From: Zanthoxylum bungeanum
Lineage: Eukaryota; Streptophyta; Magnoliopsida; Sapindales; Rutaceae
Length of the DNA: 64,000 nucleotides
Assembly: GCA_019454045.1 (NCBI GenBank)
Contig: SKCR01035539.1
Location: 16,918 to 80,917 of the forward strand
Direction: 5' to 3'
The position numbers were made by a program, and so were the translations under genes. The notes under the pieces are model-generated. The model was not told the DNA's origin and did not search any database. It saw only the letters and a list, made by a program, of their open reading frames with translations. Positions within the stretch are counted from its first letter, which is position 1. Every line of letters begins with the position of its first letter. Positions 884 through 27,097 of this stretch are shown in pieces.

Positions 884-2581
884 CAGTAATCAATAAGTTT
901 ACAAAAGACAAATCACACAGCGATCAACTGTATGATCTTATTTAAGTGATACACTAAGAATCCACTTGTTGTTATATTGGACAGTAGTACCAAATAACAC
1001 AAGTCCTTGAATTTACGACTAAGGTTTCTTATGATAAGTGAATAAAGGAAAATTCCCAGAGGACGATGGGGGTCCGGTGTAACCACTTAAGTCCTTACCC
1101 ACTTAGGCTCTTATCGCCTTGATGATATAATTTCCTTAATCACTTTTTCAATAGAAAATCTTAGACATTTATTCTTAGTGTTACACTTTTAATCCTCAAG
1201 TTTAAGTATAACAATTGTATAAGGTATAATATGCAATCAACATATAAATACTACGTTGTTATTTTTTCCAAGATACTAACATCAACTTTATCACATATAA
1301 ATTATTGTGTTAACATATGATAATTGAAAATGCTTTAATTAACTTATATCTATAATAACCAAGTTTATAATTTCATTTTATGATTTTTCTAAGTTAATTA
1401 AACACTTAATGAATAAACCCTAAAACAGTAAGTTACAAGTCATAAATAATTTTTTTTTCTTTTAGACTAATGTTGTTTCAAATGATATGGTTACTTAACT
1501 ATCCATGAGCCACAAATTCAAAACACACATGCTTCAGTCAGAGTAAGTCCAATGGTCACAATGTACTCACATATTACAACGCATATTAATTCAAGCATCA
1601 CACCCCCTTTATAAAAGAATTTGGACTTATAATACTTGAAGTTAATTTGTGATAGAGTGCCACACATATGAAGCATTAGAAATTTAGATTATACTATTTG
1701 TTATCATTTGGTTTATTTTACGTATTAAGATTTTAGTATATTTATTTTCCTACCCATGCATTAAATCTTTGTTTCATCATTTATGATTGAGATTTTGTGC
1801 TGTCGAATGGTTATTGTTGTAAGGATGTGTTGCTATTTATTATTATTAATATTTTTTTAATTACGTAAGTTTGCATGAATCATACAAAATCAGATTTTAC
1901 AATACAAAAATTAATAAGTTCTTAATTTTGTAGTCTGTATGTGTCATTAAACAAGTATAACATGCTAATTACCAAAATCAAAACAATAACCAAAAGGCTT
2001 AGAAAAACCTGAAAAATGATGAAGATAATGAAAACTTGGTCCAAGTCGAGTTGCCTTTGTGCTTAAGAACTTATTAGCCTCGTATCAGTGCTTTACGGAT
2101 GTCTTGTGACTAACGTTCTCCCAGGATTACTTGAATATTTCTTACAGAAGGGGCACTCCTTTCACAAGATCTTGAATAAGGAAAAATGAAGGAAACTCTC
2201 TCTTGACTCTCTAGACAATGTATAATATGAGAATATTTATGGATTCTTCAAATGAATGCAAGACCCCCCCTTTATATATACATGGAAGGGTGACATTGAG
2301 ACACCATTTGACTTAGGGTGTAACCCTCCTAAGGGTTATACCATTTCTTAAAGCTTAAGAAGGTCTAGAGATGCACCTTTCTAATTTAGAGGACAAGTCT
2401 CTACATCATTGTGCATTTCCCATAACCCACTACTTAAAGGGACACGTCTCTCCTACTTATACACTATATATTAGAGAATTTATAACATTAAGTTTTCAAG
2501 TAAATATTTAATAAATTGTTGTGTTGCATCTCTAATATTTTATTGTATCCTAAAATAAATCTGCATGCAACCTTTACAACA
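884..2581. other. Non-coding AT-rich flank of the Copia fragment
   Basis: No open frame of interest. The part next to the gag start probably holds the leader and perhaps LTR of the element at 1-883, but no primer-binding site was recognised. The last 90 bases or so (2490-2581) match 44471-44565. After the solo LTR that begins at 2582 is skipped, the match continues from 36732 against 44566-44690. This shows that 2581 and 36732 were originally adjacent. Confidence 0.5.
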
Positions 2582-4169
2582 TGATGAGTGGTAAATATAT
2601 CACTATTTCCCACTCATTTGACCTAATATTTTGTATAGTTTCTTGAGTTTTGTGAATATTTTGATGTGTTTTGTGTTATTTTGTAGATAAATAAAGTTTC
2701 AGGACTCTCTGGAAGCAATTCAGGGCCAAAATAGTGAAAAACAGGCAAAAATGGTAAAATTGTCATTTGGCGCGTCGCGACGCACAGCCTGCGTCGCGAT
2801 CGCTAACGCGCGCCGAAGTCTGCTAACATGCACCGGGACACGTGTCACAGTCAGAGAAGATTTGCTAAAATACGCCTTGGTAACGTGCGCCATGCTAACA
2901 TACGCCGTCTGCTAACGTGCGCCTGCCACGTGTCAACATCACATCAAATCATGCTAACTTGCGCCAGACACGTGTCATCATCACATGCTGCCGACAATCA
3001 TCATCGCCATGTCAGCATAATTATTGAGTTAATCATTCAGCCCCTGACACGTGTCACCATCTCAGCAAAAGGCGTGACACGCGTCGAAGATTAACACGCG
3101 TCGCGACTCGCAATGATGTGCGCGTCGCGACGCTCAGTGCCAACTTTTGCCTATAAATAGAAGGCCGAATTTCAGATTTGAATTCATACATTCTTCTATG
3201 TAATTCCTTAAGAATACTAACAAGATTGTATCTTGTTTGTTTATTTACAGCTTTCAGTAATTAATTTCCGCTTTTTCACTTTATTTTCTTTACTTTTCAG
3301 TCTTTACTTTCCGCAATTTACTTTTAAGCACAGTACTTTCCTTTCTTTACTTTTCAGCAATTTACTTTTCAGTAATGAAGAGGTAACTCCCCCCTGCTGG
3401 GGTAAGAGGTAAAGCTTTTATTACTAATATTTAGATTAATCTCCCTTAAATATAATATATAAACTAGTTAAAACCTGGCTTAATGAGGATACCGTCTGAT
3501 TGGTCAGTTGGTAATTATTGAAATTAGTTTTAACCAGACTAAACTGGATACCGCCTGATTGGTCGGTTGGTAATTTATTATTAATTTGACTTAATGAGGA
3601 TACCGCCTATATGGCTTGTTGGTAATTATCACGTAAAGTTAATATATTATATTAAAGGATATATCTAAAATAGTAGTGATAAAAGTGGATCCTTTAACCT
3701 CATCATTTTCTTTTATTTGTAATTTTATATTTTTACCTTCCAGCATTTACTTTTCAGTATCTACTTTCAGTATTTACCTTTCAGCATTTACTTTTCGTCA
3801 TTTACTTTTCGTCATTTAATTTCCAGAAATTTAATTTATGTATTTTATTTAATTTAAGTTTTTACCAGCCCTGGTTATGAGTTATAACCAAGTTAATTAT
3901 CTGGGGTTGTGATGAATTCCAATATCACCGGTTAATAAGGGGTTATTTTATGGTTTGAGTAAAATAAAGGTTTATTTATTGAGCCTTAGTCTTAATGCTT
4001 CTTGTTAACTGGTCATTAATAAGATTGATTCGGTAAACTTAAAATGAACTTGGAAAATGGATTTTAGGTTAAAGATCTTTGACTTAATAGCCCACGATCT
4101 TTCTTGAGGATAAATAACCCTTTAATAGATTTCCTTACATGATAGGAATATACCTGTCGGGCAGGGTAG

Positions 4170-6228
4170 TGACCGGCTTAAACACACACGTATAACGCAA
4201 GCGCACGTATTGTTCAAGTAGTATAATAATATCGATCCCACGAGGACTTAATTCCTACTGTTGTTATTAATTATTGATACTATTTATTTACAGGTATCTA
4301 ATTATAGGGAGAAGGGATTTGATTTCTTTTGGTTGGTTGAATGTGGATTTGCTAATTAAAATACTTAAAGATAAAAACATACTCAAAAGAAAATACTAAG
4401 GAAAATAAAAGAAAAGACTCAAAGATCTAAGGTCGTGATTCCACACAATATTATATAAAGATGAATTGATTCTTTTATATATGTGTAATAAATCAGATTG
4501 CTAACCTGGAACACGAAAATATGCAAAAGCCTCTGTCGATGGTCAGACGCAAATACCCAGTATAACCCAATTGAACCATATGTCTATGTCAACCAAATTA
4601 CCTGGATTCATTAAGATCAAGTTCCAATTATGGCTACCCCCGCCCGACAGGTATATGTCTGTCCTGTAAGGAAATCTATTAAAGGGTTATCTATCCTCAA
4701 GGAAGATCGTGGGCTATTGAATCTAAGGCTGAAACTTAAAATCCATATGTCTAGTTCATTTTAAGTTTACCACATCAATCTTATTGGTGATCAGACAACA
4801 AGAAGCATTAAGCTTAAAACTCAATAAACAAACTAAAGAATTACCCAATAAACAATTAAATCAATTATTAAGCCTAGTAATAGTGTTTCATCACTTCCCT
4901 AAAATAAAATAAAATGCTGGGGTTAGAGGATCCACATTTAATATTTCTTATCTAGGAATCTCACTTATTATAATATATAAATTATTTTATGTTCTGCTTT
5001 CTCAGGAATTAATAATATTAAACATTTAAAACCAGCCATATATGCGGTAATCCATTTAGTCCAATTACACCAGCCATATAGGTGGTAATTATATATCACA
5101 TAAAGACCAGCTATATAGGCGGTAAAGTAATTTATATTTAGACCGACCATATAGGCGGTAATAAAGTCTGCCATTAATTAATCCGGTTAAATTATAATTT
5201 ATATATTATAATTAAGTGAGATTTACCTAGATAATTATATTAAATGTTTCACCTTTTACCCCAGCGGTAAATTAACTACCAAACATAAAGTAAAAAAGTA
5301 AATAAAATTTTATTACAAAAAGTAAAAGTGCATAATTAAAAATAATAAAAATAAAAATGCTAAATTAAAATTACATAAACTAAAACACACAAGATGCAAT
5401 CCTTAGAGCCCTTACAAAACTCAAGGAAGACATGATTTGAATTCTGAAATCGAGTTGAATTTATAGGCGCGGATAGGGGGTCAGCGTCGCGACGCCGATG
5501 ATTGTCGACGTGGCACGCTCTGGTTCGTCGGCTCAGATTCTGGATAAGGTGACACGTGGCAAAGTGGTTGGGATCTCAATTATTGTGACACGTGGCAGCT
5601 TCTGATTGGTCGGCTCAGATTCTTATCCTCCACATGTCGATTTCGGATAAGTTTGTCAATAATTGATGCCGACGTGGTGATGACGTGGCGCTGACATGGC
5701 ACATGTGGCGAAATGGACTGTCGGCACCATATAATTAGGACACGTGGCACACTGTTATTGGCTGATGATGACGTGGCGATGATGTGGCACTTTGACTCGG
5801 TCAACCAGTGATGTGGATGATGACGTGGCAGACACGTGGCAATCGCGACTGTCGTCACCGTAGGATGATGACACGTGGCACGACGTACATTAACAGATCG
5901 GCTGTGATGGTGACACGTGGCACGGCGCACGTTAGCAAAGTCAAATTTCCTCAGATTCTGACTTGTGGACCCGGCGCACGTTAGGACTGTTCGGCGCATG
6001 TTAGGCGTCGCGACGCCAAAGGCTTGCGCGTCGCGACGCGTAAATTGACCATTTTGCCCTTTTCGTCCAATTTTCACTGTTTTGGCTCAAATCACCTCCA
6101 GAGTGTCCTGAAACTTTATTTATCTACAAAATAACACAAAACACATCAAAATATTCACAAAACTCAAGAAACTATACAAAATATTAGGTCAAATGAGTGG
6201 AAAATAGTGATATAATTACCACTTATCA
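4170..6228 (-). repeat. 3' LTR of the LOG-carrying Athila-like element
   Basis: 2059 bp, colinear with the 5' LTR at 15119-17215. It contains the G-box array, the palindromes and a TATA-like site at about 5459-5466. A subrepeat of the form ccagccatataggcggtaa recurs four times with drift at 5030-5165. It ends CGGTCA in element sense. Confidence 0.9.
5551..5925 (-). promoter_or_regulatory. G-box/ABRE-rich U3 segment in 3' LTR
   Basis: Six CACGTG cores, most in the context gacacgtggca, lie between two clusters of the GCGTCGCGACGC palindrome (5484-5495 on one side; 6004-6017 and 6028-6039 on the other). CACGTGGC is the known ABRE/G-box core bound by plant bZIP and bHLH factors. Several further ACGTGG half-sites are interspersed. 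Some sites intact in the 5' LTR have decayed here (acatgtgg, acatgtcg). Confidence 0.6.
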
Positions 6229-7758
6229 CACCTCCAAACCTAACATTTTGCTAGTCCTCGAGCAAAATATAGAATAAAATAACATAAACATCTTTAAAAT
6301 AAATTTTAACTAATCCACTTTCGTAGGAATCACGGTTGCATTTAGCGTATGCAACAAGCCTTTAAACCCCTAGGTGTCCCTAGTGGACGAGTTGTAGTCT
6401 CGTGAGGGTTTACAGCAATGATACCCACAAACATTTTACAAAAGTAAAAATGTAGTAAAACTAATGCACACAAAAGCAAAAAGACAAGCGAAAAGAGAAT
6501 AAAGAAGTCACGGTTGCATTTAGCGTATGCAACAAGCCTTTAAACCCCTGGGTGTCCCTAGTGGACGAGTTGTAGTCTCGTGAGGGTTTACAGCAATGAT
6601 ACCCACAAACATTTTACAAAAGTAAAAATGTAGTGAAACTAATGCACACAAAAGCAAAAAGACAAGCGAAAAGAGAATAAAGAAGTTAGTAACTAATCAT
6701 GTGAAATTTCTACTCCAAGTTACTAGTTGTTTTGTTTCTTTCTAAATTAATGAATAAGTAAATTCTCCTATTATATTTACCATTCTCCATATACACAGCC
6801 AACAAAATATTAAACAACTCATTTTTGCCCACAACAGTCATAAGTGCAGTTGATAAGAGAGTAATATTTTTGTCCTAAAGTTTTATCAGAATTCACACCT
6901 TTTTGCAGCAATGGAATAATTTTTTTCATTTTTCTGATTTTTTTCTTTGATTTTTTTTATTTTTTGATTTTTTGATTTTTTTTTATTTATATACAATACC
7001 TTCCGTCCATGTAGCGAGTGTTGGGTCGGTGGCTCCCAAATCAGTTGGCTTTAGGGCACCAGGTGTTAAGACACCCCTACGGACTTAATTACTCAGACTT
7101 CAGATATATATATTTTTGCAGCATCTTTGATCCATGTTGCGAGCTTTTGGCCAGTGACTCCCAAACCAGTTGGTTTTAGGGCACTAGGTGTTAAAACACC
7201 CTTACAAACTTAATAACTCGGATCTCAGATGTTTTTTTTTTTTACTCCATCACTTTTTGAGATGCTTCCTCCAATTAAACTAGAGCACTGAATATTACAA
7301 ACTTTTAAATTTTAGCTCATGTCCGTATGTTACTATGTATGTTGATAATATCTGCTAACTGAGCATATGAAGATTCATTTTAGTCAGTTTTATGGAGAAT
7401 TTACAAATTAAATTATTTAAAATGAAATAAACAAAAATTAACTTGTTCCGAAATAGGTTTGAGATATGTCTCAGGAGTGAAAACTCCTTACTCAGCTATC
7501 TCTTACCAATTTCACATTTTTAGTCAAAATAAAAACAAAAACGCTAAATATTTTTGTAATTTTTGAAAGAAATTCAATTTTTTTGTATTTTTCAAAAAAT
7601 TTTGGACTAAAAATAAAAATAACACACAACTAAAAATAATATACTAATCAACTAATTCCCTCCTCCAAACCTAAATGAGACATTGTCCCCAATGTCTTAA
7701 AAAATAGAAGAAGAGTTTAGAAGATAGTACCTGGTTAGCTGAAATTCTACACGAAAAG
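6229..7758 (-). other. Non-coding 3' internal region of the Athila-like element
   Basis: Runs from the LOG stop codon to the purine tract. It holds a near-perfect 178-bp tandem duplication (6331-6508 and 6509-6686) and an older tandem pair of about 125 bp (about 7003-7115 and 7129-7229). A CTCGAGGACTAGCAAAAT stretch (minus, 6246-6263) precedes the purine tract, as is common in Athila/Tat-type elements. No protein-coding frame is visible. Confidence 0.7.
6331..6686. repeat. Tandem duplication, 2 x 178 bp
   Basis: Both copies begin cacggttgcatttagcgtat and differ at only a few positions (for example ccctag versus ccctgg, and agtaaaac versus agtgaaac). The duplication is recent compared with other decay in the element. 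Confidence 0.95.
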
Positions 7759-8412
7759 TTAAAGGTTAAGATCCAGATTAATCCTACGCCTCTTACCACG
7801 ATCGTCCTCGGACCAATTTATCATTGAAAGGATAGGGTCAATTTGTGGTTCATAGGCTAAGATTTGGTCAATTAGATTCGGAGCAGTTCTGGCAGTAAAG
7901 AGGAGTTCTTTTAAAGGTTTTGACACGAACCCATTTCTCCGAGCATCATCAAGAAACACACAAAGAAAATCATAAAATCCATCAACGTTAAACAACCCAA
8001 TTGGTTTCTGGTGTATGTTCAGGTTTGCCCAAGATAACACTATAAAAATTTCCTCCAATGTGCCCAAGCCACCTGGCAAAGCAATAAAAGCATCAGCACG
8101 GTTAATCATTTCTACCAGTCGTTCAGACATACCTGGCACGATCAGTTCTTCTCCGTTTGATGGTCCAATAAGATTTGCCTCTGCCAATGGTTTTGGGATG
8201 ATTCCCAAAACGTTACTGCCTCCTTCCTGTAAGGCCTTTGAAACGATCCCTATTAATCCAAGATTGCCTCCGCCATATACTAAGTGCATATTCCTTGCAG
8301 CTAAGACTCTACCCAATTCCTGTACTGCTTCTACGTATTGTGGCTTAGTACCAACACTAGTACCGCAAAACATACAGATGTTTTCAACTCGTCTTCTTGA
8401 AGTGGCTTCCAT
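7759..8412 (-). CDS. LOG: LOG-type cytokinin riboside 5'-monophosphate phosphoribohydrolase, intronless, within a retrotransposon
   Basis: 217-aa ORF, the usual LOG length, with a favourable start context (aaaacATGG). LOG enzymes release active cytokinin bases from nucleotide precursors in the cytosol or nucleus. Visible motifs are CMFCGTSVG (residues 13-21), the nucleotide-binding YGGGNLGLIG (46-55), an Arg at 98 in MSER, and ALPGGLGTLEE (111-121), which matches the family signature PGGxGTxxE. The Lys that normally follows the Arg is Leu here. The C-terminus has a basic stretch RGKRRR and ends in LDLNL, which fits the LxLxL EAR pattern. Plant LOG genes normally have several introns; this ORF has none and is uninterrupted, so a captured cDNA is likely. 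It lies in element sense between the gag-like ORF and the 3' LTR. Whether it is expressed or active is unknown. Confidence 0.88.
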   Translation of the reverse strand: MEATSRRRVENICMFCGTSVGTKPQYVEAVQELGRVLAARNMHLVYGGGNLGLIGIVSKALQEGGSNVLGIIPKPLAEANLIGPSNGEELIVPGMSERLVEMINRADAFIALPGGLGTLEEIFIVLSWANLNIHQKPIGLFNVDGFYDFLCVFLDDARRNGFVSKPLKELLFTARTAPNLIDQILAYEPQIDPILSMINWSEDDRGKRRRINLDLNL

Positions 8413-8646
8413 GTTTTACTTTGGATGTCTTCAAAAGTGAAATGATGAGTTTAATTTATAACACCTGAAAAGGGTGAGTAATAATAGCACTAGTATCTTC
8501 CAAAGGATGATTGTTAGCTAAACAAAGAAATCGTGAAAGGTCAAAAAGTCTGGATCATGTCTACGAAAATAAAGATAATTACAATAGAAAAGCAAATCAA
8601 AGCAATAATTAAGGCAACTGAATTGTGTACGCAATACGCCACTAGC
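8413..8646 (-). other. Upstream flank of the LOG ORF
   Basis: On the minus strand this holds a pyrimidine-rich CCCTTTTCAG (about 8468-8477) followed by a TATAAATTAAA-like stretch (about 8452-8462), some 40-50 bases before the ATG. Either could act as a splice acceptor or a minimal promoter for the LOG ORF, but nothing proves use. It ends at the TSD ctagc (8642-8646) of the nested solo LTR. Confidence 0.35.
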
Positions 8647-8839
8647 TGTAGGGAATTCTCGGGTCGGGCGCAGCGGAAACTTGGGTCGAGCTGAAATCGT
8701 ATTTCAAAAATTTTTCAAAATACCGAGTAGATTATTCAATATATAATATGAATAATCTATTCGGATTTCACCTAAACCCAAAATTAATTACTCATGTGTA
8801 TGATCCAATCAGATGAAGTAATAATCCGACCACAAAAGG

Positions 8840-9056
8840 CCCTTTGTGCCGACCACAGTAGGTGCGACCAGACGAGGTCCGACCACATTAGTGCCGACCA
8901 CATTAGGTGTGACCAGACGAGGTCCGACCACATTAGTGCTGACCACATTAGGTCCGACCAGACGAGGTCCGACCACATAAGTGCCGACCACATTAGGTCC
9001 GACCAGACGAGGTCCGACCATAATAGGTCCGACCAGACGAGGTCCGACCACATTAG
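8840..9056. repeat. GACCA-rich minisatellite in the nested solo LTR
   Basis: Repeats built from the blocks ggtccgaccacatta, gtgccgaccacatta and ggtccgaccagacga. Three GCCGAC cores (8848-8853, 8893-8898, 8983-8988) match the plant DRE/CRT consensus RCCGAC; the others are TCCGAC. The sister LTR at 9057-11465 lacks this array. Open frames here are repeat artefacts, not genes. Confidence 0.9.
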
Positions 9057-11465
9057 TGAAGGGGTTATTTAGGGGGTGAGTCCGGTAACGCAGCGGAAGC
9101 GGTGAAAATCCGATTTTCAGATTTCAAAAATTTTTCTCGGATAAATTAAATAAACATATTTATTTAACATTCCAATAATCAAATTATGAAAATAAATTCA
9201 ATAAAACATTTTTAGGTGAATTTACCGAAATACCCTTGCTTTGTATTTTTGTCCGTTTTAGTCCGAAATTGATCCAATCAATTTTGAATGATTCTAAATC
9301 ATTTCTAAGATGAACTTATGATGTTCAAAACATCAAAACACCAAAGCAAGCAAAATCCCCAATTTCCCTTCAAATTGCCGAGAGCACCATTTGGTGCCAA
9401 CATTGACCATTTGGTCATTTCATGCTTCAAAACTCATCCAAATGAAATCCAATCAACATGAAACTTTGCATGCATCATATACACACCAAAATGCTCAACA
9501 TATATGAAAACCCCCAAATTTGGAATAGGTTAAAAACCCTAATTTTTCAATTTCCACAAATTGGGCAAATTAGGCCATTTACATTAAATCAAATGTTTCA
9601 ATCATCAATCTTTCAACTAATTCAAGTCTCAACACAATGAAACAACTCAAGATCAAATCTAGGTCATTTAAGAGTGGGTCAATAACTCTAGAATAGCAAC
9701 AAGGTTTCATAAACCTTAAAAGAATACATATAACTACACTAGTTACATTCTTTCTTCACCATACATGCTCAACACTTCATTCAAACTTCCATCAACAAAA
9801 ACACAAAGAAATAAAGAAATAAATTATCTAAGAACAACATATGTTGAAGCCTAGAACCTAAGGAACATATTCCTCTCTAATAGTAAGTTTAAAAAACTTA
9901 CTAAATTCCAAGCTTTTTCTTTGATAAGTCTTTCTTCTCTCAAGCTTTCAAAGTTTCTTCAATGGAGTTTGTTTGTATAAAGTGTATTAGGTTAAGTGTA
10001 TCATGAAATGAAAATCAATTTATACTTGTTTCATTTGGCCTATGGCCGAAAATACCAAAGACAAAAACAAGGAAAATTAATTTCAATTTCATTTCAAAAT
10101 CATTTGGTCAACTTGGACAAATATCTTATAAACAACTTTATTTGATATTTATTTTGGTCAACAAATGCAACTAATGTCATTTACTTTAAATATCCTAATG
10201 TAAGATATTTATATTTTAATTAATTTAATCATTTAACAATTAAATAATTAATTAATTAATCAAATACAAATATATTAAATATATGTATAATATTTACATT
10301 AAATATTAAAAATATATATTCATTTAGGAAATAAGTCAAATAACTCATTTTGACTATTAATTAATGTGTATTTAAATTAATCAAGTATTAAATGTAAATA
10401 CACAATAATTAAGGAAATGACTATCTAGTCTCTTTAGCATGTATCTTGCGTTTAACCATTAAACGACTTTATAAATAATCAATATTATTTATTTATGTTG
10501 CTCTAGTGCTCAACGAGTATGTTTCATTATTGAGACTCTCTAGGTTCAGGTATATCCGTCACAAAATCTAATTTCGTGTCCATAATCTATCCACCCGTAG
10601 ATTATGACGATCACGGATAATCTCGCTGAACCATACAGGTCGAGGTCATCGCAAATGTATAATTCCTCCGTCACAGGTATCCGGATAAATCCCAGAGATA
10701 TAGATGTAAACGTCAAATCTCTATCGGGACTATCCAGTCGACTATTCTATTAGCAATCTCAAAAAGAATGTTTAGAACTAGCTTCTAAACTTACCACGGG
10801 CCCATGGTTTTATCTGATTGCTAATCATATGGACTACCTATGCTCTGGTACACAGAACTGACGGATCCTATCTTGATACACATAGGACACCCTGAGGATC
10901 TATCTACACCCAACGAACAGGCGGAGGTCTGATCTAAATAGATCGGTGACGTGACTGCCGTCTAAGTGTAGAAGATGTCTCATGTGCCCACAATGGCATC
11001 TCAAGTCTAAGAATCACAAGTGCTACTCAACCCAAGAAGATTCTTATTGACGCTGGTGTACCATCCATTAAGAATCTTCGGTGAGTCGTTCAGTGTTTAT
11101 CCACTATAAACACCTACACGTCTATACTAGTCTCCAAGACTTATGGTTCATTGAGAAACCATTGGAATCATATATTCCAGTATACGACATGTACCGGTCT
11201 CAACGGGTTTACTATACTGACCAAGTAGTGCAAACCTTGACCAGGAACTGTCTGAGAATGACAACGTCATGATACGACTCAATGTCCGTTGCGACGCTTT
11301 TGCAACTGTATCATGACTAATCATTCTAGGGTCATTACGTCTTTACCATATAAAAGATTAGATTATATTATAGAAACTGCATATATTATTACTAATAATA
11401 ATGTTTTACAGAAGTATTTAACAAAATACAACCGGGAATTGGCGCTCTGAGCACCAACCCCTACA
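9057..11465 (-). mobile_element. Solo LTR inserted in the minisatellite of a sister solo LTR
   Basis: 2409 bp, starting TGTAGGGGTTGGTGC in minus sense and ending at tgaagggg (9057). The TSD attag lies at 9052-9056 and 11466-11470. It is strongly similar to 11471-13453, including a long block from the confirmed start of homology at tgcatcatat to the ggcgctctgagcaccaac end. No ORF of interest. Confidence 0.9.
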
Positions 11466-13458
11466 ATTAGTGCCGACCACATTCAAACAGAAGAGTATTT
11501 TACATGCATCATATACAAATCCAAATACTCAACATAAATGAAAAGCCAAAAGGTGGTACAAGGTTAGAAACTTGAAACCAACACTTAAATCAAGTTTCTA
11601 AAACACCATTACAAGCCTCACCACAATGAAATAATTACAGAACAATTCTAGGTCATCTAAGAGTGGGTCAATAACTCTAGAATGGCAACTAGTTTCTTAA
11701 ACCATTAATAGAATACTTATTAACTCATTAGTAACATTCTATGATCTTTATACATGCTAAACCCTTTCCAAAAACTTCCATTCTCCAAAAATACATAGAA
11801 TAAAGAATTGAAAAACATAAGAACATCACAAGATGAAGACCACAACAAGAGGAACATTTTTCTCTTTAATGGCAAGTTGGAAATACTTACTAAATTCCAA
11901 GCTTTTCCTTGTTTTTGCTTTTCTTTCTCTCAAGCTTCTATGTCTTCTTTCAATGGAGTTTTAGGTAAAGTGTGAAAAGGTTATTAAACCCTAAATGAAA
12001 CAAAACAATATATACTTGTGTATTTTTTGCCTTGGCCGAAAATTGCCAAAGGAAATTAACAAGAAATTTGTTTTAATTTCATTTGAATTTCAACTTGTAA
12101 CTTGATTAAATGATCATTACATTTTAATGATAAATTCAACCAAGTCAACAATTTCAACTTAGCCATTAAAACAAATATCATAACTTTAAAATATCTATAC
12201 TTTAATTAATTTAATCATTTAACAATTAAATAATCAATTAATTAATTAAATACAAATATATTAAATATATGTATAATATTTACATTAAATATTAAATACA
12301 TATATTCATTTATGATATTAGTCAAATATCTCATTTTGACAATTAATTAATGTGTATTTGAATTAATCAAGTATTAAATGCAAATACACAAAAAATTAAG
12401 GAAATGACTATCGGGTCCCATCACATGTATTTTGCGTTTAACCTTTAAACGAATTTATAAATAATCAATATTATTTATATATGTTGCCCTAGTGCTCTAC
12501 GAGTATATTTCATTAGTGAGACTCTCTAGATTCAGGCATATCCGTCACGAAATCCAATTTCGTGTCCATAATTTATCCACCCGTAAATTATGACGACCCC
12601 GGATAAACTCGCTGAATCATACAAGTCGAGGTCATGGCAAATGTATAATTCATCCGTCACAGGTATCCGGATAAATCCCAGAGATATAGATGTAAACGTC
12701 AAATCTCTATGGGGATTATCCAGTCGACTATTCTATTAGCAATCTCTAAAAGAGTGTTTAGAACTAGCTTCTAAACTTTACCACGGACCCATGGTTTTAT
12801 CTGATTGCTAATCATATGGACTACCTATGCTCTGGTACACAGAACTGACGGATCCTATCTTGATACACATAGGACACCCTGAGGATCTATCTACACCCAA
12901 CGAACAGGCGGAGGTCTGATCTAAATAGATCGGTGACGTGACTGCCATCTAAGTGTAGAAGATGTCTCATGTGCACACAATGTCATCTCAAGTCTAAGAA
13001 TCACAAGTGCTACTCAACCCGAGAAGATTCTTATTGACGTTGGTGTACCATCCATTAAGAATCTTCGGTGATTCGTTCAGTGTTTATCCGCTATAAACAC
13101 CCACACGTCTATACTAGTCTCCAAGACTAATGGTTCATTGAGAAACCATTGGAATCATATATTCCAATATACGACATGTACCGGTCTCAACGGGTTTACT
13201 TTACTGACCAAGTAGTGTAAACCTTGACCAGGAACTGTCTGAGAATGACAACGTCATGATACTACTCAATATCAGTTGCGACACTTTTGCAACAGTACCA
13301 TGACTAATCATTCTAAGGTCATTACGTATTTACCATATATAAAGATAGATTATATTATAGAAACTGCATATATTATTCATAATAATATTGTTTTACAGAA
13401 GTATTCAAAAGAAATACAACCGAGAATTGGCGCTCTGAGCACCAACCCCAACACTAGC

Positions 13459-13728
13459 TTAGTATAAATTCATAAGGATGCGTCTCAAGAATTCATTCCT
13501 TACTCAGCCATCGATAATGAATTATCTCTTATCTATGCCAAACACCATTCCTTATGTCTTAAAATGCTCTGTTTGTGCTTTTCCCTACAAAAATAACACA
13601 CAAAATTAAAAACTCTACAACATGTATACACAAAATATAAAAATAAAAATTACAACAAAGTGCATGGGTTGCCTCCATGCTAGCGCTAAATTTTTCGTCT
13701 TCAGCCAGACGTTACTGAAATCCATCTG
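13459..13728 (-). other. Internal spacer between gag-like ORF and nested solo LTR
   Basis: Non-coding residue of the Athila-like internal region, with a trace of coding-like sequence near 13660-13700. Before the solo LTR arrived, the gag-like stop and the LOG start were only about 0.5 kb apart. Confidence 0.5.
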
Positions 13729-14988
13729 TTAATGAGGTTTCAGCGTCATTTTGGATGTCCGATTAAAGACAATCCCGTGAGCGTTGCTTTTAAAAGGTCT
13801 CTTCCAACGGTAAAGGGGCAAAAAGACTTTTGTCTCATTCAGTGCTCGTGCCACCTTCTTAAACATTGTCGCTCCAATGGTTCCTGAAAAGAAAGAAATA
13901 AAATCAGGAGGTCTCGTATGGTGCTTGACTTGGAATGGAAGTTCCCTTCTGTCAAACTTCTGGTTGATATCTTTAAATTGTACTCCCCAAAACAGTGATG
14001 TTTCTCTTGAATGCTCTGGATCTTCAATTTGGTCTGACAATTGCTCCTCCATTTACTCTGTTTCTTGCTCCACCTTTTCTTCACAGATGTATTTTAGGAT
14101 TTCCGCGTTCAGTTCTTCATCTGTCATCTGTGAAAAACATGCTTCATAAGTGTCAACCTGAGGATGTAAAGATGTTTCTGACATTAGGTCTTCATCCTCT
14201 GATACGACTGGAATGGATGGTTCAGGTATATCTTCATCAAACATCATGGTAAAGCATGCTCCAAGATCTTCATTTTGAGGATTGAAAGTTTGATCCTCCG
14301 TTGTTGGTGCAGTTGGTACGAATAGATCAGCTTCATCCTCGTCAGAATCTGAATAATAAAAGTCAAATAGAGACTTCGCTGGTTTGGGCTCCTGAACTGA
14401 TACCTCTGGTTGTTGATACTGCTCAGCCTCCTCCTTTGTTAAGGTGTCATTGTGGATCTCTGGGTACTCGAAGGCTTTGTCAGTTTTATCTGATAATTCT
14501 TCTTGAGGTAATTGTCTCGTTTGATCTGTCAGTCTCTGAATGAATTCTGATTGTCTCTGAATACTTTCAAATTGATTCTGGCATGTTTCAAGCATTGTAT
14601 CCAACTTTTCGTCTTGTTTCTTGACCCAATCTTTGAGCATGTCAATCATCTGATCTTCCTCAGATGGTTCTGATTGTTGATGGAAATCGAAGGTGGGTAG
14701 TGGATAAGATGGAAAGTATGATGGTTCTTCATACCATGAAGGATTTTGATAGCTCTGCCACCCTGGATTGTAGTTGTACTCACAATGATCTCTCGGGTGG
14801 TTACCATTACATATGTCACATCTCTCCATTGCATCTTGTTGAGCAAATGTGGTATTGCTTGGTTCTGGCATCCAGTGATAGTTGTTGGGCTGGACAACAG
14901 GCCTCGGAAAACCTGACTGTTGCTCCCAGATTTGGGGTGTATCTTTTAGTAAAGCTCGTGATCTTTCAATCTCCCAATAATGTTCCAT
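13729..14988 (-). pseudogene. Gag-like protein of the Athila-like element, split by an in-frame stop
   Basis: The first frame (14053-14988) codes for 311 aa starting MEHYWEIERSRALL shortly after the primer-binding site. It has a CDICNGNHPRDHC zinc knuckle (CX2CX4HX4C, about residues 57-69), a Tyr/Pro-rich stretch, a Gln-rich helical part and a long acidic tail. A TAA at 14053-14055 is followed directly, in the same frame, by ATG and another 107 aa (13729-14052), suggesting a single original ORF of about 420 aa. The usual upstream gag core seems to be missing, because the ORF begins only about 110 bp from the primer-binding site. A reduced gag of this kind could still aid RNA packaging by a helper element. 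Function is inferred. Confidence 0.75.
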
Positions 14989-15094
14989 TTTTCAATCATC
15001 TGAAAACAAAAGAAAGAAATTACAGATAAAAATAAAGAAAATTAGATACAAGTAAATTAGATAGCTTCAAAATTAATAACTCAAGAAAAATAAG

Positions 15095-15112
15095 TCCCCG
15101 ACAACGGCGCCA
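15095..15112 (-). other. Primer-binding site (tRNA-Asp type)
   Basis: Minus-strand TGGCGCCGTTGTCGGGGA, six bases from the end of the 5' LTR. It differs by one base from the perfect complement of the tRNA-Asp 3' end (TGGCGCCGTTGCCGGGGA) as recalled for Athila-type elements. It fixes the element orientation as minus. Confidence 0.85.
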
Positions 15113-16408
15113 AAAACTTGACCGGCGTAAACACACACGTATAACACAAGAGCACGTATCGTTCAAGAAGAATAATAATATCGATCCCACGAGGACTTAA
15201 TTCCTACCGTTGTTATTAATTATTGATACTATTTATTTACAGGTATCTAATTATAGGGAGAATGGATTTGATTTCTTTTGGTTGGTTGAATGAGGATTTG
15301 CTAATTAAAATACTTAAAGATAAAAACAGACTCAAAAGAAAATACTAAGGAAAATAAAAGAAAAGACTCAAAGATCTAAGGTCGTGATTCCACACAATAT
15401 TATATAAAGATGAATTGATTCTTTTATATATGTGGAATAAATCAGATTGCTAACCTGGAACACGAAAATACGCAAAAGCCTCTGTCGATGGTCAGACGCA
15501 AATACCCAGTATAACCCAATTGAACAATATGTCTATGTCAACCAAATTACCTGGATTCATTAAGATCAAGTTCCAATTATGGCTACCTCCGCCCGACAGG
15601 TATATGTCTATCCTTTAAGGAAATCTATTAAAGGGTTTTCTATCCTCAAGGAAGATCGTGGGCTATTGAATCTAAGGCTGAAACTTAAAATCCATATGTC
15701 TAGTTCATTTTAAGTTTACCACATCAATCTTATTGGTGATCAGACAACAAGAAGCATTAAGCTTAAAACTAAATAAACAAACTAAAGAATTACCCAATAA
15801 ATAATTAAATCAATTATTAAGCCTAGTAATAGTGTTTCATCACTTCCCTAAAATAAAATAAAATGCTGGGGTTAGAGGATCCACATTTAATATTTCTTAT
15901 CTAGGAATCTCACTTATTATAATATATAAATTATTTTCTGTTCTGCTTTCTCAGGAATTAAGAATATTAAACATTTAAAACCAGCCATATAGGCGGTAAT
16001 CCATTTAGTCCAATTACACCAGCCATATAGGTGGTAATTATCTATCACATAAAGACCAGCCATATAGGCGGTAAAATAATTTATATTTAGACCGACCATA
16101 TAGGCGGTAATAAAGTCTGCCATTAATTAATCCGGTTAAATTATAATTTATAAATTATAATTAAGTGAGATTTACCTAGATAATTATATTAAATGTTTCA
16201 CTTTTTACCCCAGCGGTAAATTAACTACAAAACATAAAGTAAAAAAGTAAATAAAATTTTATTACAAAAAGTAAAAGTGCATAATTAAAAATACTAAAAG
16301 TAAAAATGCTAAATTAAAATTACAAAAACTAAAACACATAAGATGCAATCCTTAGAGTCCTTACAAAACTCAAGGAAGACATGATTTGAATTCTGAAATC
16401 GAGTTGAA

Positions 16409-16416
16409 TTTATAAG
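16409..16416 (-). promoter_or_regulatory. LTR TATA box
   Basis: CTTATAAA on the minus strand, just downstream of the G-box array. The same position reads CCTATAAA in the 3' LTR and CTATAAATAG in the plus-strand solo LTR (3151-3160). Conservation in three copies supports a pol II promoter. Confidence 0.65.
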
Positions 16417-16526
16417 CGCGGATATGGGGTCAGCGTCGCGACGCCAAGCCAGTGTCGCGACGCCGGTGATTGTCGATGTGGCACGCTCTGGTTCGTCGGC
16501 TTAGATTCTGGATAAGGTGATAAGGT

Positions 16527-16906
16527 GACACGTGGCAAAGTGGTTGGGATCTTAATTATTGTGACACGTGGCGGCTTCTGATTGGTCAGCTCAGATTCTT
16601 ATCCGCCACGTGTTGATTTCAGATAAGTTTATCAATAATTGATGCTGACGTGGTGATGATGTGGCGCTGACGTGGCACACGTGGCGAAAGGGACTGTCGG
16701 CACCATAGAATTACGACACGTGGCACGCTGTTATTGGTTGATGATGATGTGGTACTTTGACTCGGTCAACCGGTGATGTGGATGATGACGTGGCAGACAC
16801 GTGGAGTGACACGTGGCGACACGTGGAAATGGCGACTGTCGGCACTGTATGATGATGACACGTGGCACGGCGCACGTTAGCAGATCGGCTGTGATGGTGA
16901 CACGTG
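16527..16906 (-). promoter_or_regulatory. Array of ten G-boxes (CACGTG) in U3 of the 5' LTR
   Basis: Ten CACGTG hexamers in about 380 bp, mainly as gacacgtggc, plus TGACGTGG sites. In element sense the array sits upstream of the TATA box. Such clusters are typical binding targets for bZIP (ABF/GBF) and bHLH factors in plants. Response to ABA or light is inferred only from the motif. Confidence 0.7.
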
Positions 16907-17236
16907 GCACGACGCACTTTAGCAAAGTCAAATTTCCTCAGATTCTGACTTGTGGACCCGGTGCACGTTAGCACTGTTCGGCGCATGTTAGGCGTCGCGA
17001 CGCCAAAGGCTTGCGCGTCGCGACGCGAGAAATGACCATTTTGCCCTTTTCGTCCAATTTTCACTGTTTTGGCCCAAATCACCTCCAGAGTGTCCTGAAA
17101 CTTTATTTATCTACAAAATAACACAAAACACATCAAAATATTCACAAAACTCAAGAAACTATACAAAATATTAGGTCAAATGTGTGGGAAATAGTGATAT
17201 AATTACCACTCATCAGGTAGCATTAATTGGAACTTG

Positions 17237-19190
17237 TGTCGGGTACTAATGTCAAACCAAGATCATATTAAGCATGAAATCATGTGAATATGAAAAGAAG
17301 TATAGCGGAAATATACTCACTTTGATCGGTTATAGGATGTGTAGAAAAATTTTTTTTTGCTCTCTTTGAAGTTGTTCCAAGCTCATCCAAAGTATGTGAA
17401 TCAAGCTCCAAGCTTTGATCTTTGATTCCAAGCTCAATAGGAATGGTTTCCCTATCACCTTTGTATGATTCTTTGTGTGCTAGCAATGGAGAAATTTGCA
17501 ACAAAATTCCCCTTCTTCTTCCTTGTGACTCTCGGCCAAGCCAAGATTAGGGAGAATGAGAGTGTTTTGGGCGTGAATGAGAAGAGAGGAGAGAGTGAGT
17601 GACTTGAGTGAAAAAGTTGTATTTGATTTTCCAAAAATCAAAATGTCATATACCAAAATCATATTTGGTAAAAAGTCACTCAAGTCAATCAAGTTGAGTG
17701 TTTAGTAAGCCACCACCAACTCACCAAATTCCATCACCAAAAAGGTGAGTAAAGTGACAAGTGATGTGATTTGTGTGGGTCCCACTTGAATTCAAAATCC
17801 GAGTGGGCCCGCAAACACATTCCGGGCTCGCGTTCGTTAATTCCGAATTAACGAATTTTCCGTTGCGACTTAATTAAATCAAATTTAATTAAATAATAAT
17901 GCCTCGCAAAATTATTATTAAAGTCGCTCGTGAATTAATTCTAAATTAATTCGTTCGCCCGAATTAAAATCCAATTTTAATTTCGTTATGAAATCTAATT
18001 TCATTTAATATATCAAATATATTATTTTATCGATTAATTCCGAATTAATTGTTCTTTCTCTACTAATTGAATTTTATCCCAGATAAAATATCGCCGTAAT
18101 TAATCATAGATTAATTTGGTCTCTCTTATAATTAATCCCAGATTAATTATGTTCTAGTCATACGTTATCGGTGAATCTTCGGGAAGCGACCCATGAAATC
18201 CCTGGATATGTTGGCAGTAAATCCGGTCGTCGGACTATACGAATACGTGCGTACTCGGTACCACGTTTTTATCGATTTACGAGACATGGTTGGCTTCTAG
18301 CAAAGCACCGTGCCTACCCAATTCTCCAGAAATATTCTTTAAGGAATATATAATCTTTGTCAAGTGTAGTATACGTAGTATTGCATATTGCGATCCAGTA
18401 TCAGATGTCACATGCAAGGCCTTAGGCTGGAATAGTGTCTGCCCCGTACGAAGCATATATCGGATCACAAGCAACTAGTCTCTATAATCGGATAATCATG
18501 ACCTTGTCATATTATCCCGATAGTTGCAACATAATAGAGAACCGGTTCTGTATCCCTGCGTGATCATCATCACCATATGACTGAAGTGATACTTTTGTCT
18601 TGACATCACACCCAATATACTACGATTCTCAATAAACCCAGAAGAGGCGTACACATAACCTGTTAAAGTCCCGGACGACCAAAACCAAAGCGTATTGATT
18701 GTCGCAAGTACTAGCGATGCAAGTCTCAGGTTAAGACCAAATACACCTACCCTGATGCGGATTCCTATAGATACATAGTCATACAACCAATGGGATTCTG
18801 CGGGGTCTATCCAGAGCGAAGCTGTTTCCGTACCATCGGTAAACACAACCTCCTATCACACTTGCATAAGTATCCAATACTTAAATATATGAGAACTATG
18901 TGTTACGCTTCCATAACACGCACAAGTGCAATACTAGTCTATTCTGCATTATCGATGTCCAGTCTCGATAATACTACGACTAGGGATATTTAATGATTAA
19001 ACCTTCGTGATTGATATTGTCTCATATCTTATAATCCGAAACTAATCATAAGGACTTTTATCATTTATATATTCAAGTAATCAAATTACAAAATGATAAA
19101 ATAGCAATTTCCATTGTCACACAGTTAATTTGTACAAAAACCACAATGTCTTTTACAAATAGTGTCGCTATGGGTCATAATTGTCCAACA
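17237..19190 (-). repeat. 3' LTR of the Copia element
   Basis: 1954 bp, aligned end to end with 34348-36303 with scattered substitutions. It starts TGTCGGGTACTAATG on the plus strand, where its partner reads TGTTGGGTTCTAATG. Open frames appearing in both copies (for example near 18277-18474) are chance frames in LTR DNA. Confidence 0.95.
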
Positions 19191-20386
19191 ATCTCCCACT
19201 TGGCCTATAGCCAGTCACTCAAGCATCTAACACCTGAACTATGTACATGTCGCTCAAACTTTTGCTGAGGAATAACTTTCGTCAGCGGATCTGCCTTGTT
19301 ATCATCTGATGTATTTTTATTCGATCATTACATCGCCACGATGTATGATTCGACGAATCAGATGAAATATTCGAAGTATATATTAGGATCGTTGATGAGA
19401 CCGTAATACTTTAGCTTGTGCTGTAGCCCAGCCCAGCTGCTAACAGAACTTTACCTAATCTAATTAGGATTATGTAGATCCAAAAGTGCTTCTTTTGCTC
19501 CCTCAGCTGCAGCAATGTTCCGCTTTTGTTATTTATTCGGCAACAATATCTTGCTTGGAAGATTTCCAGCTCACTGTTCCGTTATTCAAACTATGTAGTA
19601 CCTTTATTGCCACTTACAGTCATTTTTGTCGGTTTGGAAACTTGCAACGGTGAACCCAGTCACTTCAAGTTCTCTTTCTCCATGACTTAAGAAGGCATCT
19701 TTAGTTCGTCTAAGATACTTAATGATGTTCTTAACATCAATCCAGTGACCATCACCTGGATTGTCCTGATTTTGACTCCATATGCTCAAAGCATATGAGA
19801 CACCAGGTCACGTACATATTTTTAATGTACAAGTTCTCGGAGAGGGTCAACAACTTTTAGATCTATCCCAGTAGATCCTTATTCCTAGAATAAAGGTTGC
19901 ATCTCCCAAGTATTCCATGGATAATTTTAATGAAAGCCAAGCTTTCACCGATTGTATTATGGGAATGTCATTTCCAAGAAATTATATGTCATCATTATAT
20001 AGGACAATCATTATCAGTGCGCTCCCACTAACATTCTTAAATACACAAGAATCTTTACCGTTTTGAATGAAACCATATACTATTATGATCTTATCAAAAT
20101 GTTAGTTCCAAGAACGTAATGTTTGCTTCAATCTATAAATGGATCGATTTAACTTGCAAACCTTGTTTGCTTGTTTTGGTACGACAAAACCGTCAGGATG
20201 TTTTAAACATCCTCCAAAAGGTTTCCGTTAAGGAAAGCGATTTTGACGTCCATCTGTCATATTTCATAAATGAAATAAGCAGTTATAACAAACATTATAT
20301 GAATGGATTTAACATGGCAACATGTGAAAAAGTTTCGTCGTAGTCGACATTATGTCGTTGACGATAGGCTTTCTGTATAAGCTTTG
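19191..20386 (-). pseudogene. Copia pol remnant: RT C-terminus and RNase H
   Basis: Minus-strand translation around 19604-19789 reads NPGDGHWIDVKNIIKYLRRT and continues to a TVASFQTDKND stretch, typical of the Copia RT-RNase H junction, with the catalytic D of the usual YTDASF motif changed to V. Near 20180-20300 there are traces of the MDVKTAFLNG region of RT. Multiple stops and indels; no functional product. The gene is cut at 20386 by the Gypsy insertion and resumes at 29764. Confidence 0.75.
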
Positions 20387-23065
20387 TGTGGGAACATAGA
20401 AACTGGGCGACGCATGCTGTTCCGGGCTCGCGGCCTGGTTGGAGTACGGAGTAGCCCGCGGGGGACTAAACTGGAGAATAATGGAGTCGCCACCCGGTGT
20501 GAACCGGGAAAATGAGATTTAAGGCCGCACTCACCCCTCGCAAGGGAAGACCTCAAACCGTTGGGTTCGGAATGGTCCCTTAGTTATGCCACTTGTAATA
20601 AAATGATTTGTGCAATAATTCAACCAAGCCTAAGTAACATTTATTTCCAAGGAGTATTCTACTTTTAAGTTCACATGCACAAAAGTAATCATCATAACGG
20701 AAAACATGCAATAATACGAGACAATCTCATGAACATACTTCGATCATATAATGCGGAAAACGAAGAACATCCTAAACATAATGCAAATTCCAAATGCAAA
20801 ATAAATGACTAATCATGCTTGAATACCATCTCATGAACACATCAAATAAATAAATACAGGAATACAAATAGTATGATTGATTACATGATACAAGAGAAAT
20901 TACCTAAGAAACAATTATGCATGACATGTGATGAAAAAGACTCAATTCAGTGTGTGTGCGTTCGTGTAGCGTTCGTAAACGCGTTCGAACGGTAAACAGA
21001 AGGTTCGCGTTCGTGTAGCTTTCGAGAACGCGTTCGAACGGAACCAGACCTGATGCATGATAAAACAAAGGAAATACATGCGCGTTCATGTAGCGTTCGT
21101 AACGCATTCGAACGGTAAACAGAAGGTTCGCGTTTGTGTAGCGTTCGAGAACGCGTTCGAACGGGACCAGACCCGATGCATGATAAAACTACGAAAATAC
21201 GTGCGCGTTCGAGTAGCGTCCAAAAACGTGTTCGAACGTTAAACAGAAGGTTCGCGTTCGTGTAGCGTTCGAGAACGCGTTCGAACGGAACCAGACCTGA
21301 TGCATGCAACACATACATAGACAAATAAATCCACAATGTAGGACCTCACGTGTCCGATTGAACTCATTCTCATCCAATCATGTGTACCTCGTCCGGCGCG
21401 GCAAATCATCGTGGTAAAAGATTTTAACCCCTCGAAATAGAGGACCTTTAATCGCACTTACTAAGCCCATGCGCTAACAACACAATACATATATAAAAAG
21501 TAAAGACAACGATATCAGACTTCGTGTATCCGATTGAACATATCTCACATCCAATCGAATATACATTAACCGCCGCGGCAAAGCATTGTGGTAAAGGATT
21601 TTAACCTCTCAAAATAGAGGACCTTTAATCGCACTTACTAAGTCCATGCGCTTTATCTCATCACTATATATACCAATAACATGCGGAAATCACGTAGCGA
21701 ATAATAAACAAATCAAGATAACGTGAAATAAAATATTTGCCGTATACTCAAGTGGTACGTGGAGTTGTATCTCGAGTACAGATCATACTACCGTCTATTC
21801 GGGATCGGCTATGAAATTTATGTCCGGGTTTCCATCCTATATACCACAAGAGGCGACACATTTTCATTCATTCAATGGCCACAACACACATTATGCAACG
21901 ACTCTCATGCGAATAAAATTCAACAAACAATTAAAAGATGAATATAAAATAATGAGAAAGGTGCCCTCAGGTCTAACCTTTTATGTCAACTTTCGAAGTA
22001 CCGTACACGGTCGTCGGAAGGGTGGATGCTCCGCTACTCCTCCGATTCACTGGTTCAACGTTTCACTTCGCTGCTTCACTGTTCGGGCTGCTGTTTTCCC
22101 TCCGTTTCGCTGTTGTTTTACTGTTGTTTTGCTGCTGTATTCCGGTCACTGTTTTGGTGTTTTAGGCTAGTGTTTTGGAAGTTTTTGGGGGGTTGTTTTG
22201 GTGTGATTTGGGCTGCTGTTTGGGTGTGATTTTCAGTTAGTGTAGCGCGTAATGGGGTTGTGAGTTGTGAGTTCGTTGAAGTGGCCAAAGGCTATGGCCG
22301 TGCGTGGTCAAGGGATTATGTGTCTCGGCTGTGTGTTTGATTTGTGAGGGTTATGAGTGTGAGTTCGGTTGTGTCAATGAGCTTGGGTCTTTCTTGGGTG
22401 AATGAACTAGGGGTTTAGATGTGTGGTGAATGGTTCTTTTTATAGGCAAATGGCTAGGGCTTCTCCTTGCTTGACAAGGAAGGGATTTGGTGCATTAAGG
22501 GAGGATATGATTTAGTTTGAATAAGGAAAACCAAAGATTTGATTGGGGGACAAGATTGGTTCAAATTAGGGATATAATATATTTAATTTGTATTGTTTAG
22601 GCATGATATTTGTTAAGTTAGGAATACAATATTTTTAATTTGGAATAATATTTTGTTGATTGATTTTAATTAGGCATGATTTTATTTAATGTTTTATTTA
22701 ATTTGGTATATGATTTAATTAATATTTTATTTAATTTGGTTGTATTTTAAGGGCCTTGGGCGTGTGGGCCAAGGTGGCGGGCGTGTGGGCTTGGGTGTGA
22801 GGCTAACAGAAAAACCAGAAATACCGACGCCGTTCGAACGCCGATTCGAACGCTACACGAACGTCTGTAATCTGCTTGACGTTCGAACGTGGTCACGAAC
22901 GTAGCACAAACGAAAAACAGTGAACTTATGAAATGAATCTGATGACATAGTTATTCTGAATTTCCCATTCCGACGTCCGTTTCCCGCGACTTCCGCGACT
23001 TAAAAGTTAGTGCCTCCAAATAAGACTCAGCATAGGGACTTATATGCAAAAATGCAGTGCCTACA
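20387..23065 (-). repeat. 3' LTR of the Gypsy element
   Basis: 2679 bp, TGTGGGAACATAG to GTGCCTACA. It includes a minisatellite of inverted-repeat-rich units (20955-21300) and the flanking-like text ggcctcacgtgtccgattgaactc. Long frames in the minisatellite (for example 20947-21336) are repeat artefacts. Confidence 0.93.
20955..21300. repeat. Palindrome-rich minisatellite (gcgttcgtgtagcgttcg units)
   Basis: About six units of roughly 60 bp pair up into units of about 120 bp, each carrying gttcgtgtagcgttcg followed by acgcgttcgaacg and the spacer gaaccagacctgatgcatg. The matching array in the other LTR is at about 27665-28015, and short versions recur near the opposite LTR ends (22830-22915 and 29525-29610). 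Confidence 0.9.
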
Positions 23066-23224
23066 GTCGCCCCCACTTTGATGGGACTTGTGTAATGTGC
23101 AATAGTGACAATCTTATCAAAGTTATGCAATGCATTTTCACTTACCTGGCTCGCTAGCTGCCACTTGACTTGCCATGTGTTGAGTTGAGTTGATTTGGTG
23201 GTGAGGTGCTGCGACCCCTGGTTC

Positions 23225-23400
23225 ATTTTTGGAGTGCCATTTCCTGCATCTGTTGTGTGTGCTCCATTTTGGAGCGCCATTTTCGGCATATGTTATGTGT
23301 GCTTCATTTTGAAGCGCCATTTTCGGCATCTGTTGTGTGTGTTCCATTTTGAAGCGCCATTTTCGGCATCTGTTGTGTGTGCTCCATTTTTGGCGTCTAC
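23225..23400. repeat. 43-bp tandem repeat, about four copies
   Basis: Units of the form agcgccattttcggcatctg followed by ttgtgtgtgctccattttg. Located just inside the purine tract of the Gypsy element. The frames on both strands are repeat artefacts. Confidence 0.9.
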
Positions 23401-26113: not shown

Positions 26114-26124
26114 ATCAGCCCATC

Positions 26125-27094: not shown

Positions 27095-27097
27095 GAC

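Follow-up and report, generated by a model that had tools for sequence, protein, structure and literature searches.

The abstract of Steinbauerova et al. 2011 is said to describe two Athila-like elements similar to LOGL4. For two Citrus species, PMC9289625 records a LOG-type YgdH domain in consensus sequences of LTR retrotransposons, and it does so for Populus as well once a filter is disabled; this is the paper that cites Steinbauerova et al. 2011 on elements with a LOG-type domain. It was the only one linking LOG to an LTR element within the coverage of our literature search, which most subscription papers fall outside. The presence of LOG in LTR elements is itself already reported (PMC9289625), and the belief expressed in the preliminary description of the present locus, that no LOG-carrying family had been described, does not hold. 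Among related elements, a primer-site spacing of 5 bp and a tRNA-Asp primer are described for the Diaspora and Calypso group in PMC1142308, and Athila ORF-1 (PF03078) is given as present in 16% of Athila elements, and as not required, in PMC6317226. Plant viruses are a second point of reference: viral cysteine-rich proteins (CRPs) suppress RNA silencing, and the CRP of chrysanthemum virus B works as a transcription factor that induces hyperplasia (PMC12172455).

The window, the whole 64,000-nucleotide stretch of Zanthoxylum bungeanum DNA analysed here, holds a complete, LOG-bearing LTR retrotransposon of pol-less form on the minus strand (4170-17215). Repeat comparison delimits a 5' LTR of 2097 bp (TGATGAG...GGTCA, 15119-17215) and a 3' LTR of 2059 bp (4170-6228), both on the minus strand; the element has TG...CA termini and is flanked by a 5-bp TSD, CTACC, on its 5' side (17216-17220) and its 3' side (4165-4169). 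A primer binding site (TGGCGCCGTTGTCGGGGA, 15112-15095, minus strand) lies 6 nt inward of the 5' LTR, and a polypurine tract (GGTTTGGAGGTG, 6229-6240, minus strand) abuts the 3' LTR, so that all four landmarks named in the preliminary description are present. We take the primer site to be of tRNA-Asp type, with one mismatch to the tRNA end. The two LTRs differ at 77 of 2048 aligned sites (K2P 0.039), which with three substitution rates would correspond to an age of 1.5-4.1 million years.

A short gag-like ORF (13735-15006, minus strand; open over 14053-14991, with two in-frame stops over the whole) carries CX2CX3HX4C-like and YNPGW motifs, which we take as marks of gag; a Pfam scan of this ORF gave no match. 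The LOG ORF (7759-8412) is on the minus strand, as are the LTR pair, the primer site and the gag-like ORF, and the proposal that LOG and element share a strand is borne out. LOG does stand between the 3' LTR and the gag-like ORF, as had been said, but most of the space from LOG to gag is a separate nested insertion (8647-13453) with TG...CA ends, a 5-bp TSD, CTAGC, and two 1.85-kb direct repeats that are 87% alike; this insertion is later than the window's pol-less derivative. A splice-acceptor-like motif (CCCTTTTCAG, 8465-8474, minus strand), which reads CTTTTCAG followed by GT and would by its form serve in splicing, lies 52 nt upstream of the LOG start codon; a strict version of the pattern is present in 21 of 33 copies sampled without regard to LOG and in 7 of 20 copies chosen by LOG similarity. 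Downstream of LOG lies a 3' untranslated region (6241-7758, minus strand), of which 6700-7740 was used as a non-coding probe. Within this region, window positions 6330-6686 are a tandem duplication of a 179-bp stretch, 98.9% alike.

The element was inserted into an older, related LTR in opposite orientation (2579-4163, continuing from 17216), which is about 79-84% like parts of the LOG element's own LTR. Elsewhere in the window there is a second large element (17237-36313) bounded by a repeat pair (17237-19201 and 34348-36313, 96% alike), with an inner repeat pair (20387-23065 and 27098-29763, 96% alike) and a gag domain in a minus-strand ORF (24873-25616). Open frames of an ABCB-type transporter gene, apparently a host gene, lie on the plus strand at 52903-56511; its named protein matches include Punica (74%), Acer (79%) and Pistacia (86% over 66% of the query), a spread that does not fix the plant family. 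Minus-strand ORFs at 56799-62271 belong to a Copia-like element (type read by eye) with terminal repeats of about 307 bp that are 97% alike.

The uninterrupted, intronless LOG ORF encodes 217 aa plus a stop; on the plus strand the same stretch contains 13 stops. Its translation matches Pfam Lysine_decarbox over residues 55-184 (E 2e-34) and Arabidopsis At2g37210 (PDB 2a33) over residues 4-203 (E 2.5e-56), with 46% identity over 200 aligned residues. The similarity to the Lysine_decarbox (SLOG) family is full-length, and the preliminary description of the ORF as intact is confirmed. The PGGxGTxxE motif reads PGGLGTLEE in the window and is kept in 87 of 96 relatives. In place of the canonical MHxRK the window has MSERL, with R kept and both H and K replaced; K is found in 5 of 96 element-type relatives, with 17 of 96 unmatched by the pattern. 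Because most element LOGs lack the MHxRK lysine, their catalysis may be altered. The change lowers the certainty with which activity can be predicted from sequence, not that of family membership.

The window protein ends in a C-terminal GKRRRINLDLNL tail. Both a basic pair and LxLxL occur within the C-terminal 16 residues in 86 of 120 relatives (the best 120 of 6934), and in 78 of the 101 listed relatives of at least 200 aa; among 16-mers drawn at random from these proteins, 0.15% show the combination. The one host LOG locus that was found and read (L067) has no such tail and ends in ...QQLGYTNKSDIAR, with the C-terminus ...WEMEQQLGYTNKSDIAR. Two Arabidopsis LOG chains stop 8-10 residues past the aligned part, too short for the whole tail. 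We take the basic pair and LxLxL to resemble a nuclear signal followed by an EAR-type motif. These observations, together with the replacement of the MHxRK lysine, would fit an element LOG that has left cytokinin metabolism and become a nuclear protein, for example a recruiter of co-repressors or a nucleotide binder protecting element transcripts or chromatin. That proposal has to contend with the PGGxGTxxE glutamate, the MSERL arginine and the full-length similarity to 2a33, all retained in the window copy, and the nuclear-signal and EAR reading is an interpretation of short motifs; we consider it improbable, if the best placed of the alternatives.

Several features make the element most likely of Athila type, in agreement with the preliminary description. 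The tRNA-Asp-type primer site lies a few bp past the LTR, and the order gag-pol (RT-RH-INT) followed by an extra 3' ORF is seen in the fullest fetched copy, L013. In the pol ORF of L013 only RT_RNaseH models match, with no second (archaeal-type) RNase H, by Pfam alone and in this one copy. Athila ORF-1 (PF03078) had no match in the ORFs scanned.

We wondered how widely such elements occur in the genome (3.96 Gb, 51,709 contigs). With the window LOG protein as query at least 150 scored matches were obtained at 91-100% identity, the window included, of which 142 of 150 were stop-free; the 70,434 first-look candidates of this search are not verified copies. A canonical Arabidopsis LOG as query also gave at least 150 matches (49-52% identity, 145 of 150 stop-free), and the two listings overlap at 10 places. 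Counted once each, with allelic and duplicated contigs left in, the matches listed come to at least about 277 places whose matched stretch has no stop. The non-coding 3' UTR probe returned 40 scored matches from 7142 first-look candidates, and LOG homology was present in 36 of 38 copies sampled in this way. The preliminary description had proposed a search for further LOG-carrying copies, and had allowed that the ORF might be a local gene if no other copy carried it; such copies turn out to be many. LOG is not the private capture of one element; it is likely to be an accessory gene, at the 3' end, of an Athila-like family with a very high copy number. One copy, on contig C19159 (L002), is a twin of the window, with 100% identity in the LOG protein and 99% in the 3' UTR. 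Two further pairs, L024/L025 and L065/L066, have identical LOGs on different contigs, and all three pairs are probably haplotypes or assembly redundancy.

The forms of the family were typed in 21 copies: the window and 20 of the 150 LOG matches, fetched with flanks. All 21 contain LOG, the 20 having been chosen by it. Nine have the window's form, with a short gag-like ORF and neither pol nor CRP, the cysteine-rich zinc-finger ORF that precedes LOG in other copies. Eleven have gag (in L015 only a quarter of it by homology), the end of pol alone, a CRP frame or its remnants, and LOG; the pol-end match starts at pol residue 817 in 8 of these 11 and at 810-861 in the others. L024 and L025 share layout as well as LOG and are probably one locus counted twice, and nested in L014 is a further, inverted copy that shows the integrase end, a portion of CRP, and a LOG that has diverged. 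The single remaining copy, L013, has gag, RT, RNase H, integrase, CRP and LOG, with a protease-like match below the Pfam cut-off, which gives the order LTR - gag - protease-like - RT/RNase H/integrase - CRP - LOG - 3' UTR - LTR. The 38 copies sampled without regard to LOG divide into 24 in which CRP precedes LOG, 9 with the short gag, and 5 in which the fetched 1.8 kb contains neither of these.

The window copy is a pol-less derivative, one of two pol-less forms. Because the typed copies include L013 with its full pol, the term pol-less, applied in the preliminary description to the element as such, is right for the window copy and describes forms within the family, but not the family as a whole. 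The forms are intermixed both in the LOG tree and in the 3' UTR tree of 20 copies, and the window's form as a single clade is rejected (p-AU 2e-5 and 2e-4, respectively); the simplest account is that the forms exchange 3' ends with each other. Given this mixing, template switching, and not selection within the pol-less copies, may be what keeps their LOG renewed, and a claim of separate selection on LOG in those copies was given up as not separable.

The CRP frame of L013, upstream of LOG, is open for 168 aa and shifted near its end; in relatives it is about 182 aa. Two Pfam families of carlavirus cysteine-rich proteins match it above their curated cut-offs: Viral_NABP at 29.2 bits (cut-off 23) and Carla_C4 at 27.6 bits (cut-off 20.9). 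A protein search with L013 CRP returned 102 proteins at E<=0.001 among 117 candidates, and of 37 of the 102 that were aligned, Carla_C4 is matched by 35 and Viral_NABP by 32 at E<=0.01, the best values being near 1e-8. Three stretches are well conserved: KKRRAKR, a finger of the form CxxC...C...C, and NREDKIxFIKDGLSKESLD. These matches suggest a link to the viral CRPs, at Pfam scores of 23-29 bits in the members whose scores are given, and movement of the gene from virus to element or the reverse would both be compatible with them. The CRP and LOG scans of viral contigs found no relatives, and a PDB search with a CRP profile gave no match up to E 1.

The named sources of CRP homologues are the plants Xanthoceras, Orobanche hederae, Rhamnella, Acer and Citrus, plus one entry labelled Clostridioides difficile. 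This entry (P0327) is a 98-aa CRP fragment on a 293-bp contig and most likely plant contamination of that assembly. Automatic gene models run CRP into LOG in Orobanche (P0314), Acer (P0328) and Citrus (P0342), and a model from Rhamnella (P0333) fuses an integrase-like end to CRP, by a reading of its sequence by eye. On contigs C41828 and C29699 the listed CRP and LOG matches stand at the expected spacing; on C23121 they are 95 kb apart. Our literature search found no paper on a carlavirus-type CRP in an LTR element, as judged by titles and abstract starts and with most subscription papers outside its coverage, and no earlier report of the pairing of CRP and LOG in a retrotransposon was found.

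The preliminary description had taken the LOG ORF, as the sole undecayed frame, to indicate recent capture or selection, and had proposed dN/dS between copies as a check. In a first sample found by LOG similarity (28 loci, 22 distinct ORFs), LOG dN/dS was 0.13, and it was 0.12-0.13 across the LOG-chosen copies, with values of 0.50 for gag, 0.58 for the short gag and 0.39 for CRP in the fetched ones; the LOG figure is biased, because the copies were picked by LOG similarity. A second sample comprised 38 of the 40 3' UTR matches, all except the window and its twin, with the upstream stretch fetched; these copies are those closest to the window's UTR, yet they were not chosen by LOG. In the second sample LOG is intact in 7 copies (L038 without ATG, and the identical L065 and L066 among them), has stops only in 7, is shifted or partial in 21, and is missing or under half in 3. 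Pairwise LOG dN/dS over the 35 copies with at least half of LOG is 0.35, hardly better than the 0.40 of CRP; it is 0.50 among the 7 intact and 0.33 among the 28 broken ones. A cruder reading of the same 38 copies gives 0.46 for both genes. The low dN/dS thus holds for the LOG-chosen set but not for the set chosen by non-coding sequence. The notion of a uniquely preserved LOG was dropped on these numbers. Because LOG is intact in just 7 of 38 copies, the intactness of the window ORF is not itself evidence of selection, which becomes visible only in the pattern of shared variants.

Singletons are mostly changes that followed insertion, whereas variants in at least three copies were mostly passed on by transposition. 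Among 34 distinct LOG rows, singletons have N/S 233/82 = 2.84, inside the neutral range of 1.9-3.4 derived from the window ORF, whereas variants in at least three copies have N/S 60/57 = 1.05 (odds ratio 0.37, p 1.5e-5). For CRP, which 24 of the 38 copies carry and which is intact in 3 of them, the values are 4.03 for singletons and 1.35 for shared variants (p 6e-5). The p-values of these contrasts are optimistic, because related copies are not independent, and in the 20 LOG-chosen copies of the first sample the contrast of shared variants with singletons was not significant (0.37 and 0.69, p 0.21). Amino-acid changes are under-represented among shared variants when these are set against singletons, so LOG is constrained in the lineages that spread; both LOG and CRP seem to be maintained through the spread of the element itself and to degenerate where they have been inserted.

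The same data bear on a rival account that makes LOG a passenger: after a single capture it would be copied together with the 3' end because it is harmless, with no function for the element. LOG is broken or missing in 31 of the 38 copies not chosen by LOG, and conservation is good in the adjoining 3' UTR too (mean K 0.074 across 20 copies), as a passenger would have it. The depletion of amino-acid changes among shared variants, the retention of PGGxGTxxE in 87 of 96 relatives and the occurrence of CRP-LOG gene models in three plant genera all speak against it, and we think a passenger LOG somewhat more improbable than a nuclear one.

For the origin of LOG, 120 relatives were considered, the best of 6934. 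A tree with 101 rows, made up of the window, the 96 of these relatives that have 205-260 aa, and four PDB entries (length excluded the other 24 relatives), splits the window and the 96 relatives from At2g37210, At5g11950 and two bacterial LOGs (support 100/94). This element-type clade is deep, and its named members come from several plant families. Reevesia contributes 14 entries to the best 120, under nine different chromosome labels; this spread and the CRP-LOG gene models point toward the 96 relatives being element-borne. In a second tree, of 34 rows, the LOG parts of the Citrus and Orobanche models fall among element-type LOGs on long branches, with the host and outgroup rows held together at a support of only 92/94. 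The Arabidopsis LOG matches at host gene L067 fall in seven pieces, read as exons, and the gene is therefore read as having six introns. Its identity is 82.5% to At2g37210 and 43.7% to the window ORF.

The acquisition of LOG is likely to be old, and its sequence has diverged from the LOG with introns found in the host. The preliminary description had preferred a recent capture from mRNA, which was rejected on the divergence from L067 and the copy number. Recent retrocopying, by this one element, of a LOG gene of the local host, which an intact, intronless ORF in a host with an intron-bearing LOG might suggest, is scarcely credible given the 43.7% identity, the very many copies in the genome and the deep clade of element-type LOGs, and is refuted for L067, the only host LOG locus found and read.

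We therefore favour, as the likely explanation of the whole, an old LOG accessory gene of an Athila-type family that is selected in transposing lineages and activates cytokinin in the host cell. The family, its gene order and the constraint on both accessory genes are its observed parts. The steps beyond them would run as follows. The element would be transcribed and LOG translated from it, perhaps from a spliced subgenomic RNA; within the cell that expresses it, the enzyme would convert cytokinin riboside monophosphate to the active hormone; and cytokinin would favour a dividing, meristem-like state from which new copies reach the germ line. CRP may act beside LOG like its viral relatives, with silencing suppressed and cell proliferation stimulated. 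The variant spectrum shows purifying selection on LOG in lineages that transpose, and decay in each inserted copy. Both the activity of LOG and its benefit to the element are predictions, and that the cytokinin step is the selected function we put slightly below an even chance.

A more elaborate version of the favoured explanation would see a two-gene cassette for host manipulation in an old angiosperm retrotransposon lineage: CRP would blunt silencing and drive proliferation, and a nucleus-directed cytokinin enzyme with a co-repressor-like tail would act with it to hold the cell proliferating, poorly silenced and meristem-like. We regard this as unlikely, though less so than a LOG that has left cytokinin metabolism. 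Were the cassette real, the element would gain by shaping the fate of the cell lineage toward the germ line. An active enzyme would mean that a plant genome contains a large, mobile stock of genes able to activate a hormone, and that a retrotransposon may steer development toward its own inheritance. The short remark in PMC9289625 on LOG-type domains in a few plant retrotransposons becomes a testable system, with at least about 277 open LOG places, spread-linked constraint, a virus-type neighbour gene and an unusual conserved tail.

Compared with known systems, the family shares with Athila, Calypso and Diaspora the tRNA-Asp-type primer site, the 5-bp TSD and an ORF between pol and the 3' LTR (PMC1142308, PMC6317226), but its extra ORFs are CRP and LOG, not envelope-like genes or Athila ORF-1. 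With the Citrus and Populus elements it has in common a LOG-type domain in plant Ty3/gypsy elements; the selection test, the tail and the viral-type neighbour ORF noted here are absent from the accessible portion of that account (PMC9289625). The Phalaenopsis Gypsy elements with an AlkB-type RNA demethylase are alike in that a host-type enzyme has been fixed as an accessory ORF, and differ in the enzyme and in its demonstrated activity, whereas LOG here is known from its sequence (PMC9289625). Maize Bs1 and other transduced genes likewise place host gene sequence inside an LTR element, but Bs1-type captures are found in one or few copies, whereas LOG is a standing gene of a large family (PMC7264820). 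Like the CRPs of carlaviruses, allexiviruses and mandariviruses, the element protein matches Carla_C4 and Viral_NABP and has a basic KKRRAK stretch followed by a cysteine finger (PMC12172455); unlike them, it resides in a retrotransposon, is about 182 aa long, has a conserved NREDKIxFIKDGLSKES and is a suppressor by prediction only.
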